From: Planctomycetaceae bacterium
Lineage (GTDB): Bacteria; Planctomycetota; Planctomycetia; Planctomycetales; Planctomycetaceae
DNA length: 61,773 nucleotides
Assembly (NCBI GenBank): GCA_021732415.1
Contig: JAKFVC010000178.1
Coordinates: forward strand, 1-61,773
Direction of reading: 5' to 3'
The notes beneath the pieces were generated by a model. It was not told the origin of the DNA, made no database searches, and saw only the letters and a list, made by a program, of their open reading frames with translations. Below are positions 4,937-61,651 of the stretch, piece after piece (the stretch's first letter is position 1; each line of letters opens with the position of its first letter). The translations under genes and the position numbers were made by a program.

Positions 4937-5158
4937 GTGGGATGGGTCTCCAGGCCCGTCCGTCCCCTAAGAAGTGGCTCGGCATACGCTTAAGGACGAC
5001 GGTTTGAGGCTGCGCGAGATGAATGCATGATCGGAAACATCACGGATTTGTGGAGCCTAGAATAAGTCGCAACCCGTGCGCTGCGCGAAGCTCGCGGGGG
5101 TCGAATCTATGTGAAGTTGAAGGTTACGGGCTCGGACGGGCCTGGAGACCCATCCCAC
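4937..5158. repeat. Inverted-repeat element, family A (with a B right half)
   Basis: The left arm begins GTGGGATGGGTCTCCAGG at 4937 and the right arm ends CCTGGAGACCCATCCCAC at 5158, forming a stem of about 30 bases. Inside it, 5070-5130 matches the right-hand B layer of the composite at 59631 (shared GTGCGCTGCGCGAAGCTC). A partial third copy of the A arm follows at 5163-5181. It fills the gap between the VOC and aldolase genes. Confidence 0.8.
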
Positions 5159-5283
5159 GAACACTGGAGACCCATCCCATGGATTCTTTGGGCAGCACTT
5201 GCCGCCGGCGGCGGGTTTCGCGACATTGGTGAATGTGGAATCGCGATCCTGACAACTCAACAAATGCTGGAAGAATACAACTC

Positions 5284-12800: not shown

Positions 12801-13039
12801 GTGGGACGGGTCTCCAGGCCCGTCAGTCCCTGTAACCTTCGAGTGTGAATAGTGGAATCCCTCGCGAAAGGAGATGACCGTAGAACGGGCACTCCTGCCC
12901 GTCGTCGTTGTTGTTCTTCACTGCCTCGCACTGCTTAACGACTGGGTACAGTCGCGAAGCAGTGGCACGATGTTGAATGCTTTAATCGTCGTTCAGTTTC
13001 CGAGGAAGGGGGACGGACGGGCCTGGAGACCCGTCCCAC
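12801..13039. repeat. Inverted-repeat element, family A, overlapping the pbpC start region
   Basis: Arms 12801-12830 (GTGGGACGGGTCTCCAGG) and 13011-13039 are complementary. Between them are smaller palindromes, ACGGGCACTCCTGCCCGT at 12885-12902 and a CACTGCTT stem at 12930-12964. The left arm reads in frame with pbpC. Confidence 0.85.
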
Positions 13040-45771: not shown

Positions 45772-46017
45772 GTGGGACGGGTCTCCTGGCCCGTCCGTCC
45801 CCCGATGTCGCGATCTCTGTCAGCGTGCAAAAGAATCCAGCTTGGTGAGCCCCGTCCCGTCAGGGCGGGAGTTCCTCGGTATCCAGTCGCGAGGTACCAT
45901 CAACCCCAGGCCTGACGGCACTGGGCTCACCTGGGACAATGAGAGAAATGTCAATCGCTTGGCGGCATGGTTGAATTCAATTCCAAACCGACGGACGGGC
46001 CAGGAGACCCGTCCCAC
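45772..46017. repeat. Nested inverted repeat: family A outside, F-like inside
   Basis: Outer arms 45772-45803 (GTGGGACGGGTCTCCTGG) and 45990-46017 are complements. Inner arms 45844-45876 (GGTGAGCCCCGTCCCGTCAG) and 45889-45931 are imperfect complements. The outer arm family is the same as at 4937, 12801 and 59631, but the inner content differs from all of them. Confidence 0.85.
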
Positions 46018-57952: not shown

Positions 57953-58336
57953 TTGGAAGGAAGTCTTCGCAGGCGAGCGTCCGGCGTCGTCCAATAATGA
58001 CGGGGCGGATGGCTGTCTTGCGGACGCTGAAACTTTCACCGTGATTTGCAGATTAACTCTCTGCTTAATCAATAAACTCCAAATTGGGTGCCACTGGCTC
58101 TGCCAGTGCTTTGGCGGATCGGGCATCGATAGACAACCGGCACTGGCAGAGCCAGTGGCACCCGACATAAGCCGTATTGATTGTTGAGACCGAGTGTTTA
58201 ACTCACGAAAACAAATTGCCCGGTGCCTTACGGCACCCGGCTCGCCTAGTTAATTATTTGTGTAACGTTCCCTATTGATTGGACGTCGCTAACAACCATC
58301 CGGCTCACGCCGGACGCTCGCCTAAAAGTCATTACT
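57953..58336. repeat. Intergenic gap with family D hairpin and F-like halves
   Basis: 58086-58163 is a D hairpin with arms GGGTGCCACTGGCTCTGCCA and its mirror. F-like halves (CGGTGCCTTACGGCACCCGG, 58221-58240, itself palindromic) and GGCTCACGCCGGACGCTCGC follow. No gene is seen in the 384 bases. Confidence 0.75.
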
Positions 58337-59626
58337 ATGCCAACTTCACGCATCTCGAAATTGTTGCCCGTGTTCCTCACCGTTCAAGTTGCGGTGGTGA
58401 TTGCTTTCGGTGTCGGCTTTGCCCGTAATTCCTCGGACGCCACATTGCGGCTCGAGCAGATCCGCAAGGGGCGGATTGACTTCCCCGAGATGAAGATGAC
58501 CCGGCAGGAACCGCTGCGGATTGCTCCGTTGTATGACGATCACGAGATGATCAGCGATGAAGATCTGGCCGCCGTGTTGCGACAGGTCCAGCCGCGATTT
58601 CCCGCTCAGAAGATGAAGCCGAACTACGTCGAGCATGCGTTGCGCGTGTGGGGCGTGGATGCCGAGTTCCGTGACCCCAAGGTCATGTCGGGTCGCAAGA
58701 TGGTCGATTTCCTGCTGAATAACTCGCAGTACGTGGCGTCGTGGGGGACGAAGGTCGCTCCCATCCTGCAAGAAGAGGAAACGGGCGTCTCGATTCGCTG
58801 GGGCAAGGAAGAAGGGGCGTCAGTCCATCACGATCACCTGCTGGCATGCCTGTCTGAAGCCGGCGTCTCGCTGAATGAGCCGGTTTATACTCCGTCACAT
58901 CGCGAGAAAACGATCAACGACATCTTGCAGCAGGCGCTGCGTGATTTCCGTCTGGACGAACGCGAAACCGAATGGTCGGTCCTGGCGTATGGCCTGTGGC
59001 TGCCTCCGGAAGGAAAATGGAAGAACAACGCCGGCCGCGAGATCACGTTTGATATGCTCGCCGATCGGCAGATTCGCGGAGCCTTGCCGTTAGGTGTGTG
59101 CCACGGGACGCACCGGCTGTATTCGTTGATGGCGCTCGTCCGATTGGATGATGAATTCAACGGCCAACTGATTCGCAAAGACACGCGTGAGAAGATCATG
59201 ACCCACCTCAAGAAGGTCCGGGACATCATCATCGCGGCCCAATTTCCCGATGGCCACTGGGCGTCGAACTGGCCCGAGGGAGCCGACTCGGTCAAGAAGC
59301 CGGTCGAGGACGAATTGTTCCGCCAGGTGATCGCGACCGGTCATCATCTGGAATGGCTCGCCATTGCCCCCCTGGAATTGCACCCGCCGCGTGAGAAACT
59401 GCATCTGGCCGCGAAGTGGTTGATCAAGACCACGAAGGACCAGACACGCTCGGAAATCCTGGAGAAATACACGTTCTTCAGTCATGTCGGTAATGCGTTG
59501 GCTCTGTGGCGACACACCCGCCCGGCCGACTTCTGGAAGCAGTGGGAAGGGGCCCATGCCGACGAGGGAACGCAAGTCGAACCCGAGCCGATATTCCCCG
59601 CCAAGGCGAAGCCGGCAGCCCATTAA
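58337..59626 (+). CDS. Anchored protein of unknown function, possibly alpha/alpha-toroid
   Basis: A 429-residue protein with one N-terminal membrane helix (LLPVFLTVQVAVVIAFGVGF), otherwise soluble and helix-rich. It faces the periplasm if the anchor is uncleaved. From about 225 the text suggests a toroid: GVCHGTHRLYSLMALVRLDD, IIIAAQFPDGHWASNWPEG (QF..DGHW resembles the QW motif of terpene cyclases and of the alpha/alpha toroid) and ATGHHLEWLAIAPLELHPPR. No DxDD or other catalytic signature is seen. The C-terminal 40 residues are polar. No recognised family; I would not assign a reaction. It stands alone between repeat-filled gaps. Confidence 0.75.
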   Translation: MPTSRISKLLPVFLTVQVAVVIAFGVGFARNSSDATLRLEQIRKGRIDFPEMKMTRQEPLRIAPLYDDHEMISDEDLAAVLRQVQPRFPAQKMKPNYVEHALRVWGVDAEFRDPKVMSGRKMVDFLLNNSQYVASWGTKVAPILQEEETGVSIRWGKEEGASVHHDHLLACLSEAGVSLNEPVYTPSHREKTINDILQQALRDFRLDERETEWSVLAYGLWLPPEGKWKNNAGREITFDMLADRQIRGALPLGVCHGTHRLYSLMALVRLDDEFNGQLIRKDTREKIMTHLKKVRDIIIAAQFPDGHWASNWPEGADSVKKPVEDELFRQVIATGHHLEWLAIAPLELHPPREKLHLAAKWLIKTTKDQTRSEILEKYTFFSHVGNALALWRHTRPADFWKQWEGAHADEGTQVEPEPIFPAKAKPAAH

Positions 59627-59630
59627 TTGT

Positions 59631-59972
59631 CGTGGGACGGGTCTCCGACCCGTCTGAAGCACGTAACAATTCACGTCAAAATGCGTTCGTCCCTCGCGAG
59701 CTTCGCGCAGCGTACGACGTGATTTCGGTATCGAGCCTCGTTTGCTTCAATACAGCCAAAATCCGGGTGCCACTGGCTGTGCCAGTGCTTTGCCGGACAG
59801 CGAGCCGATAGACACCCGGCACTGGCATAGCCAGTGGCACCCGAGGAGAAGCGTATTGAGGAATCTGGCCGTATTGATTGCGGCAACCTGTGCGCTGCGC
59901 GAAGCTCCCGAGGGCAGATCCTGTGTCGCGGCGAATGTTACAGGCTCGGACGGGCCTGGAGACCCATCCCAC
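59631..59972. repeat. Four-layer nested inverted repeat (A-B-C-D)
   Basis: Layer A: GTGGGACGGGTCTCC from 59632 pairs with GAGACCCATCCCAC ending 59972. Layer B: GTAACAATTC..CTCGCGAGCTTCGCGCAGCG (59661-59715) pairs with GCGCTGCGCGAAGCTC..GTTACA (59885-59943). Layer C: TTCAATACAGCCAAAATC (59746-59764) pairs with AATCTGGCCGTATTGATTG (59862-59880). Layer D: GGGTGCCACTGGCTGTGCC (59765-59783) pairs with GGCATAGCCAGTGGCACCC (59824-59842). D also exists alone at 58086, A with other loops at 4937, 12801 and 45772. Confidence 0.88.
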
Positions 59973-60000: not shown

Positions 60001-61485
60001 ATGCCCGAGCAACTCAAACTTCTGATCCGATCCGGCCATCCCATCATCGCCATTGAAACCGGCGACGAACCGCGCGCGATGGACCTCATCAACAAGGTCT
60101 CTGACGATTTACAGGTTCCGGCCACCGTCTGGTCGATGACGTCCGGGCTGATCTGTAACAACAAAGGGACGATCGAACGGCTGGTGAGCGAAGGCAAACC
60201 GCTGCACGCCTTGCAGACGATTAAAGAATCCTCGCTGTGCGGGATCTATGTCTTCAAGGATCTCGGCGCCCATCTCAAGGACCTGACAATGTTGCGCTTG
60301 ATGCGTGACATTCACAACGAGTTCACACTCAATCGGTCGACGTTGTTCCTGGTCGATTCTGCTCCGCTCCCCGATGCCATTCGACGCTTCACGTTGCCCT
60401 ACGAAATCAAGCCGCCGTCGTTCGAGGAACTGGAGCTGGTGGTCCGCAGTACCTTCCGCAAGATTGCCGCGGAATCGATCTATGAAGTCAAAGCGGAAAT
60501 CACCAAACGGCAGATGGAGCAACTGGTGCAGTCGCTGCGCGGCTTAAGTTGTTCCGAAGCAGGGCGCGTGGTGGCGTCGGTGATTTATCAGGATTACAAG
60601 CTCGATGGTGGCGATTTAGGGCAAATCATTGAAGCGAAGCGGCGGGTCCTCGCGTCGGCCGGCTGCCTGGAGTCGGTGGCCGTCGATCGCGCGTCCGAGG
60701 ACATCGGCGGACTGACGAATCTCAAGGCCTGGTTGAAAGTGCGGCGTGGCAGCTACTCGGATCGCGCCCGCGAATTTGGTCTCGAACCACCTCGCGGTAT
60801 TTTGCTGTTGGGAGTCCAGGGCTGCGGCAAGAGCTTGTGCGCAAAAGCGGTCGCGGCCGATTGGAATATGCCGCTGCTGAAACTTGATCCGGGCGTCCTC
60901 TATCAGAAATTCGTCGGCGAAAGCGAAGGCCAACTGCGGCAAGCATTGCGACAGGCCGAGGCGATGGCTCCGGTGATCCTGTGGGTCGATGAGATCGAGA
61001 AAGCGTTTGCCTCAGCCAACGCCAGTTCGGCGGACGGAGGTTTGTCGCAGCGAATGTTCGGCACGTTGCTCTCGTGGATGCAGGAGCACCGTCATCCGAT
61101 CTTCTTGATCGCCACCGCCAACAACATCGAAGCGTTGCCGCCCGAGTTGATGCGGAAGGGCCGCTTCGACGAGATCTTTTTCGTCGATCTGCCCAACGCA
61201 GCAAATCGCGAGGGGATTCTCAAGATTCATCTGCAACGTCGCAAGCGAGACCCCGACGACTTCGATCTCGAGGTACTGGCCGAGGCCGCCGACGGCTTCA
61301 GCGGGGCTGAACTCGAGCAAGTAATTATGTCGTCGCTCTACCGAGCCTTCGCCGAAGACAGCGAACTGGAGACGCAGCACATCCTGGCGGAAATCGCCGC
61401 GACCCGGCCGCTGTCGGTGGTCCTCGGGGAGAAGATTGCAAACCTGCGAGCGTGGGCGAAGGAACGTTGCGTCGAGGCGGATTGA
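60001..61485 (+). CDS. AAA ATPase, Ycf46-like
   Basis: Cytosolic AAA+ protein of 494 residues. The N-terminal half (1-225) has [20 protein letters not shown] and VWSMTSGL, the start typical for the Ycf46 family. The ATPase domain has Walker A GVQGCGKS (271-278), Walker [12 protein letters not shown] (D330, E331), sensor/arginine region [16 protein letters not shown], and the AAA small lid with [20 protein letters not shown]. Ycf46 proteins in cyanobacteria and other bacteria affect CO2 response or photosynthesis, but the molecular substrate is unknown. The ATG at 60001 lies about 30 bases after the four-layer palindrome, whose end could enter the leader mRNA. Confidence 0.88.
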
Positions 61486-61498
61486 GGTCGCAAAATTT

Positions 61499-61651
61499 GT
61501 GGGACGGGTCTCCGACCCGTCTGAGCCTGTCACATTCGGCGCGACACAGGATTAACCCCTCGCGAGCTTCGCGCAGCGCACGATTTCCTTTCCGCAGCGA
61601 GGCTCGTTCGCTTCAATACGGCCAGAATTCGGGTGCCACTGGCTGTGCCCA
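61499..61651. repeat. Left half of a second A-B-C-D composite
   Basis: The same order of layers as at 59631: A (GTGGGACGGGTCTCCGACCC), B (CTCGCGAGCTTCGCGCAGCG), C (CTTCAATACGGCCAGAATTC), D (GGGTGCCACTGGCTGTGCC), then the match ends abruptly and no right half is seen before the window edge (61773). The remaining 120 bases show no gene. Confidence 0.8.

Follow-up and report, generated by a model that had tools for sequence, protein, structure and literature searches.

At an intergenic site in this planctomycete genome, the inverted arms A, B, C, and D are stacked coaxially over 341 bases (positions 59632-59972), and the structure is probably a composite of non-autonomous palindromic REP/RAYT-type elements (MITEs) that were inserted into one another and then multiplied via the A ends. 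The window analyzed here, a stretch of 61,773 nucleotides, corresponds to contig 36 in a draft assembly of 9.87 Mb (350 contigs). Its near relatives are planctomycetes, and the protein encoded at 60001-61485 is 97% identical in the MAG Planctomycetaceae bacterium RYN_439. One open reading frame ends at 59626, just before the stack, and the next starts at 60001. Inverted-repeat search, self-alignment and folding located the arms where the sequence-only reading had placed a stacked palindrome:

59632-59654, plus strand: layer A, left arm, itself near-palindromic, GACGGGTCTCCGACCCGTC (sequence and self-alignment)
59655-59672, plus strand: layer B, left arm, taken to continue the A arm inward (sequence)
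59691-59715, plus strand: layer C, left arm, 92% complementary to its partner (inverted-repeat search)
59744-59757, plus strand: extra arm between C and D, left, GCTTCAATACAGCC (read from the sequence)
59764-59788, plus strand: layer D, left arm, 96% complementary to its partner (inverted-repeat search)
59819-59843, minus strand: layer D, right arm, paired with the left D arm (inverted-repeat search)
59867-59879, minus strand: extra arm between D and C, right, GGCCGTATTGATT (read from the sequence)
59890-59914, minus strand: layer C, right arm, paired with the left C arm (inverted-repeat search)
59933-59947, minus strand: layer B, right arm (sequence and self-alignment)
59948-59972, minus strand: layer A, right arm (sequence and self-alignment)

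The centers of A, C, and D agree to within 1.5 bases at this site. Folded as DNA, the region reaches -104.2 kcal/mol, compared to -64.4 ± 4.5 for 100 shuffles, none of which equaled it (z -8.9), and the RNA fold of the same region also stands far from its shuffles (z -12.8). All four arm pairs that had been claimed are real and stacked in the order A-B-C-D, but B is better taken as belonging to the A arm, at its inner end, which gives three modules rather than four. In an A element of contig 9 that carries a RAYT (REP-associated tyrosine transposase) gene, the arms run A and then TGAGCCCGTCACCTTCGA / TGAGCTCGTAACCTTCGA, matching the ABCD consensus at only 21 of 34 positions (29-62); the arms of a corresponding element on contig 40 match it at 16 and 18 of the same 34.

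The A and D repeats are not due to chance, since the 15-mer core of A has 454 exact matches in the 9.87 Mb genome (227 per strand) and the core of D has 239 with up to one mismatch, compared to zero for either pattern read backwards. Among the 100 A core matches listed, most form inward-facing pairs with varied spacing. The whole element has at least 91 matches in the genome (40 of 457 candidates scored). At least 24 full ABCD copies of 337-361 bases have A arms and a D core in one layer order, both C arms being recognized in 22, and in these 24 the center of D is offset from that of A by a median of 0.5 base (outliers 9.5 and 14.5). Their alignment has conserved patches corresponding to A, B, C, the extra arm, and D, and the linkers between these are poorly conserved. 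In 20 of the 24 copies, namely wherever it was found, the GCTTCAATA sequence of the extra arm (up to one mismatch) begins at a distance of 27-30 bases from the left C arm. The linkers from C to D are about 28 bases per side (left, 27-30 in 20 of 20 measured copies; right, 26-29 in 13 of 15, the other two being 16 and 23). Two empty A-B-C shells have loops of 56 bases, which fits two linkers of about 28 bases, and of 45 bases; that a D element was placed at the exact middle of the C loop is only suggestive. Distinct D pairs number 39, of 68-80 bases, most of them within ABC shells.

Elsewhere in the window the same arms occur in other arrangements:

4937-5158, no strand: hybrid A element with a CGTC-type left arm and an A-B-C-type right half (sequence)
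12801-13039, no strand: A pair around a different palindrome, of the GGGCACTCCTGCCC type (sequence)
45772-46017, no strand: A pair around a GGTGAGCC..GGCTCACC palindrome, family E (sequence)
58086-58164, no strand: D pair between arms of another family (57972-57986 and 58308-58322), beside a third palindrome lacking its left half (sequence)
61499-61649, plus strand: copy truncated to A-B-C and half of D, close to the end of the contig (80% identity to query 8-159)

As had been noted from the sequence, A arms surround other contents at 12801 and 45772. The element at 4937, described there as A with only the right half of B, does have a right half of the A-B-C type but is a hybrid, and 4937-5180 appears to be a recombinant or a copy of which half was replaced. 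It is followed by a further A-like right arm at 5166. The D pair at 58086 exists but does not stand alone, as had been thought: its outer family is a GGCGAGCGTCCGGCG..CGCCGGACGCTCGCC pair, and adjoining it is the right half of an E palindrome that is intact at the place corresponding to 57972-58322 in a sister species (locus L094). The same outer family, with an inner element and the right half of E, also occurs at C18:5703 and C18:86542.

The idea that the layers are modules able to combine was borne out by what A arms enclose. Among 75 distinct A pairs, a partly biased sample in that 29 scanned loci were fetched for their similarity to the query, 40 clusters of interiors were distinguished (one with 27 members, which is ABCD-like, two with four, three with two, and 34 singles). 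Eleven inner motif families were recognized (C, D, E, F, G, G2, H, I, K, Q, and T), and 18 of the 75 pairs held no recognized inner motif. Some A-B-C shells hold D; two have no inner palindrome (L087:6120 and L111:17444) and one has a CTCACGCAAAGG palindrome as its core (L125:14454-14831), while C-D occurs without A at L076:7949. Other nests include P around S, Q around R, and E around T and F, with G found beside C, and in G027, which belongs to a related genus, there is a nest in which the D pair is outermost and encloses another palindrome (L219). The genome-wide search that had been proposed for distinguishing one large palindrome from nested parts returned at least 24 copies in a single order, and yet the layers also occur in other combinations, so it did not reduce the structure to one large element. 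The recurrence of ABCD in one order at least 24 times does mean that the composite behaves as one multiplying element as well. As a separate observation, a fixed S-U-U-S double palindrome of about 127-131 bases, with the TTAGGCTCGGCGGGAGCCTCGCCCTCCC type outside and the GGTCGGCGTCCGCCGGAGGCC type inside, is common in the sample (L107:9292-9422; similar in L074, L075, and L109).

Both A and D arms enclose transposase genes. A search of the genome for Y1 transposases gave 13 matches, and at eight of these loci the gene is surrounded by exact inverted repeats of at least 28 bases. Two RAYT genes, whose proteins are 65% identical, lie inside A pairs on contigs 9 and 40 (the Y1-bearing A elements are L078:14736-15634 and L073:1077-1894). 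The contig 9 gene is absent from the 13 matches and was recognized by reading the interior of an A pair, then confirmed as a search query; the contig 40 protein just reaches Pfam Y1_Tnp with its neighbors in the genome search. Against NCBIfam NF047646 (REP-associated tyrosine transposase) the two proteins score 1.4e-18 and 6e-16 (67 and 59 bits, curated cut-off 80), and against Pfam Y1_Tnp 14.1 and 20.5 bits, both under the cut-off of 23. Residues H130, H132, W171, Q172, and Y192, comprising the HUH histidines, WQ, and the tyrosine column, are invariant in an alignment of seven proteins, all of which have the HUH motif and the catalytic tyrosine. No sequence match to the contig 9 protein was found in the PDB.

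The arm subtypes associate the ABCD copies with one of these genes. TGAGCC-type arms are present in 24 of 24 ABCD copies, on both sides in 23, and the contig 9 RAYT element is of the same type. CGTC-type arms flank 35 of the other 51 A pairs on both sides, as in the contig 40 RAYT element, and only four of the 51 have TGAGCC on both sides, namely the contig 9 element, two D-less A-B-C shells, and a single degenerate copy of ABCD. In two related genera another RAYT gene lies between D arms, at two places in G028 and one in G027, always with an arm spacing of 660 bases; the one of these three copies that was scored, from G028, reaches 92 bits against NF047646, above the cut-off of 80. No close D-type RAYT was found in this genome (G000) or in its congeners G002 and G003 (one match in G000, at 33% identity and without flanking D; none in the others), and thus D may not be mobile now in these three. 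No transposase was found next to C. The proposed link to HUH transposases stands as an association only, with RAYT genes found within A pairs in this genome and, in relatives, within D pairs; the elements are putatively mobile.

Exact-pattern searches of 59 genomes found A in five and D in 19, with D present without A in 16. Because their arms enclose different RAYTs and their phylogenetic ranges differ, A and D are best read, on these sequence comparisons, as separate mobile families that met in this genus.

To follow individual sites, sequences flanking 30 elements were used to search three genomes of the same genus (G001, G002, and G003), and the sites in G003 and G002 were then compared, with the window site added to the set. 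Of the 31 A or C-D sites, 25 could be resolved (L076:7949, L081:2168, L081:6530, L085:16640, L123:9389, and L124:9603 were left out). The search for empty sites suggested by the sequence-only reading found several. In classes read from the gaps by eye, which overlap where G002 and G003 differ and of which none includes L077:7848, six of the 25 sites are empty in every relative resolved (window 4937 and 45772, L085:8895, L087:6120, L090:14116, and L092:15626), and a further two are empty in G002 only (L090:11654 and L091:8940), for a total of 8/25 empty in at least one relative; 12 of the 25 hold a different palindrome without A in some relative; and A arms or remnants with another core or none occur at six sites (the window site, L091:4015, L120:8408, L111:5816, L125:9464, and, in G002, L091:14204). 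The copy at L092:15626, of ABCD type, is missing in the relatives, where gaps of 39 bases (G003) and 8 bases (G002) are found. At the degenerate ABCD copy L091:14204, G002 has an A remnant and G003 another palindrome. The same element of A around F is kept in G003 at two sites, with arms more conserved than linkers.

Several of these sites share a shell and differ in the core. In G003 the window site keeps the A arms and the same right-hand junction around a GGTGAGCC..GGCTCACC palindrome; and the orthologue of L120:8408 keeps A-B-C with D replaced by another core. The cores observed in A-B-C shells include, in a G003 orthologue, a AATCAGCCG core. In G002, the GGGCACTCCTGCCC-type palindrome stands without A at the 12801 site, and the 45772 site, where A encloses E, is empty. 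A shell that is common to sister species and holds a different core in each favors nested insertion over one fixed element, and some differing sites are better called core exchange than addition. Inspection of the empty-site junctions by eye gave no clear target duplication or tetranucleotide rule; a target site duplication is not expected of Y1 elements.

Of 18 other nested sites, 12 were compared flank to flank (C16:72750, C16:75574, C18:34675, C2:76671, C7:31203, and C8:34599 were left out). At C9:63227, a left arm of family 23 and an E pair are present in three species and the right family-23 arm only in G000; across the three species the E loop holds nothing, a GGGCACTCTTGCCC palindrome, or a GACGCTGCTAGCGTC palindrome. 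C16:1740 in G000 consists of a family-23 shell around an empty E, and in G003 the E is of a different subtype and contains a further palindrome. Family 23 is filled at C9:37890 in G000 and bare in G003, and C2:11637 has P around S in G000 and a single bare P hairpin in G003. At C18:86542, C18:5703, C18:1437, and others, the relatives simply hold other palindromes. It was also observed that a GTGGGATAGGC..GCCTATCCCAC palindrome recurs in G003 (L162, L277, L287, L293, and L295) where G000 holds other palindromes. Different palindrome families seem to have been amplified in different species.

We then asked how nesting compares with chance placement. De novo detection of inverted repeats, with a non-coding mask based on a simple ORF rule, gave 30 families and 256 elements in 1.145 Mb, a partly chosen sample in which contigs 2, 5, 8, 9, 16, 18, and 21 already had A or D matches and contigs 1, 7, and 19 were added on other grounds (7 and 19 nevertheless had matches). 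This set contains 45 direct nests in 21 combinations, and four partial overlaps compared to 26 under random placement. When the combinations (14,22) and (20,12), both regarded as fixed units, were excluded, 36 nests in 19 combinations were left. A sequential random-insertion model predicts 10.6 ± 3.1 nests, or 14.8 with a 30% smaller background, and none of 1000 runs reached 36, a total that counts repeated composites many times. The 19 combinations compare with 10.3 ± 2.9 expected (P 0.002), or 14.2 ± 3.4 (P 0.098) if the non-coding background is 30% smaller. In these combinations the inner element lies on average 0.147 from the center of the outer loop, compared to 0.25 if uniform (P 0.0008), and in 7 of 19 it lies within 0.05 (P 0.002); without combinations involving A, C, or D (n = 16) the mean is 0.164 (P 0.008), with five within 0.05 (P 0.017). 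The commonest nests, A around F and A around I, are off-center, at 0.29 and 0.28. An earlier test with 18 hand-picked, motif-defined families in 651 kb gave four distinct combinations compared to 2.5-3.3 expected (P 0.21-0.43), and 10 nests compared to 2.6-3.5, six of the ten being A around F. The suggested preference for hairpin loops is thus favored by inner elements centered beyond chance but unproven, given the two off-center nests and the modest excess of combinations, and we consider insertion at hairpin tips to have moderate support. A broader possibility, which we put forward tentatively, is that HUH/Y1-mobilized palindromes prefer the tips of other extruded hairpins for insertion, so that coaxial stacks would build up in genomes of this genus, with shells that persist and cores that turn over, such tips being a target common to many unrelated RAYT families.

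On the most probable reading, nested insertion, the outer A(+B) arms would be the ends of one HUH/Y1-transposase element, the D arms the ends of a second, and C another palindromic module, for which the searches turned up no partner gene. Each element would have inserted inside the next, near the hairpin apex, giving a coaxial stack, and the A ends would then have allowed the whole stack to multiply as one unit, presumably with the A-type RAYT of contig 9 acting on them. The RAYTs may mobilize the arms in single-stranded hairpin form, and D and C may have arrived inside A with hairpin tips as their target. Counted against this reading are the A-RAYT scores below cut-offs, the failure to find a close D-type RAYT in G000, G002, or G003 or a transposase by C, the absence of a readable target duplication or tetranucleotide rule at the empty sites, arms of ABCD copies that match their own partners no better than the arms of other copies, and sites at which the core seems swapped rather than added. 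All the same-genus genomes are drafts, 85-98% complete, and nested repeats are prone to mis-assembly, but similar kinds of nest turn up repeatedly in separate genomes, which speaks against an artefact of assembly alone.

The same observations bear on four other accounts. ABCD might be a single ancient palindromic element in which the layers are conserved patches of one long hairpin and the other combinations are decayed relatives, and the 24 full copies, with the same order and spacing, are what this would predict. A-B-C shells that lack D or have other cores, C-D without A, roughly 40 unrelated kinds of interior between A arms in the sample, and the separate transposases and phylogenetic ranges of A and D make it very unlikely; one fixed large palindrome was rejected as a full account on the basis of such shells and ranges. 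The single-element account is contradicted in its full form and is still right for the spread of the present ABCD copies. It is similarly improbable that the sites are simply occupied by selected hairpins, with intergenic positions requiring a strong hairpin (for termination or mRNA protection) and palindromes replacing each other. The 12 resolved A sites with a different palindrome in some relative are consistent with such a requirement, whereas the eight that are empty in at least one relative are not.

Random crowding, in which palindrome families insert randomly in limited non-coding DNA and nesting follows without any loop preference, is somewhat unlikely; it accommodates the near-chance combinations of the hand-picked motifs, the weaker de novo excess with a smaller background, and the off-center nests of A around F and I, but not the excess of nests under either background or the centering of inner elements, which persists without A, C, and D. 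Recombination between similar arms could also swap interiors as cassettes, so that shells and cores are reshuffled without transposition into loops. The window site and L091:4015, which share A arms with G003 around a wholly different interior, the hybrid of two A subtypes at 4937-5158, and the E core at C16:1740, which differs between species in subtype and content, are all compatible with swapping. We nonetheless regard this account as unlikely, as swapping alone explains neither the centered inner elements nor the empty sites, and arms of 25-30 bases are short for homologous recombination. Correction of each arm by its partner (quasi-palindrome repair) was also tried and rejected: across the 24 ABCD copies, identity between an element's own arms is 0.651, not higher than the 0.683 between copies.

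The sequence-only reading went too far in stating that no described element has this architecture. REPINs are described as inverted REP pairs with a variable spacer and with reads indicating excision (Bertels and Rainey, PMC3116915). As in the account given there, the families studied here have inverted conserved arms with a less conserved spacer (39 D pairs; 24 ABCD copies aligned), are extragenic and of high copy number, are predicted to form single-strand hairpins, and are associated with Y1 genes; a cognate RAYT is flanked by the same repeat for A in this genome and for D in G027 and G028 only. Unlike the REPINs in the sections of that source drawn on here, the families are stacked coaxially, other families occupy the spacers, and the arms of A and D, which begin GTGGGACGG and GGGTGCCACTGG, lack a GTAG-type (or similar) tag at the hairpin foot. 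Other local families do have such a tag (GTAGCCCGACTC, GTAGGATGG, and GTAGCGGAATC). Six A sites fit the description of MITEs, as short non-autonomous elements with inverted ends and empty sites in relatives.

TIRtrons, or TIRYT, have a tyrosine transposase within long, sometimes self-complementary inverted repeats that in some genomes form dispersed families (Di Nocera et al., PMC3733652), and the A elements likewise have a Y1 transposase in long inverted repeats that are also dispersed. The same source mentions DNA inserted between dimer partners, and inverted repeats joining degenerate REPs to unrelated hairpins, with hundreds in Pseudomonas. The GGGGWSAS motif, present in only some TIRs, does not occur on either strand in the first 60 bases of any of the four arms belonging to the two A-RAYT elements, and, compared to the portions of that account used here, our case differs in having three families stacked on one axis and cores exchanged at orthologous sites. 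ISPsy8 inserts at the symmetry axis of a REP hairpin, and IS1397 and IS621 also target REPs, as outlined in PMC1525189; insertion at a hairpin axis would be common to both cases, with short palindromes here and full insertion sequences of other families there. Thus, with REPINs, TIRtrons, and axis insertion by ISPsy8 in print, the component pieces are already known. Our literature searches found nothing on nested bacterial REP palindromes and no case of unrelated palindrome families stacked around a common axis with cores that can be interchanged, and relative to REPINs, TIRtrons, and REP-axis insertion, such coaxial stacks look like an undescribed variation on known elements. The spread of REP sequences is still called poorly understood (PMC8266576, in the part consulted). 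The 30 recurring palindrome families in a 1.1 Mb sample, with RAYTs between matching arms and shared shells with different cores at orthologous sites, supply natural pairs of states before and after an event, with which target choice can be studied both from sequence and in vitro.

Finally, class 3 of the TnpA_Y1 superfamily, with atypical secondary structures, is found mainly in Planctomycetes, Acidobacteria, and Proteobacteria, according to the sections of PMC6006769 used here. The A-RAYTs resemble IS200/IS605 and TnpA_Y1 in having HUH and one tyrosine and, presumably, in the single-strand substrates, and they have WQ and YIGRN, unlike the W[TA] and YV[VI].EQ given for class 3 in those sections. 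IS200-type or related Y1 genes also occur in this genome within long, internally palindromic inverted repeats of 43-54 exact bases, at L071 (G000:C231:11075-11296), L061, L063, and L064, with the repeats of each locus forming a family of their own.
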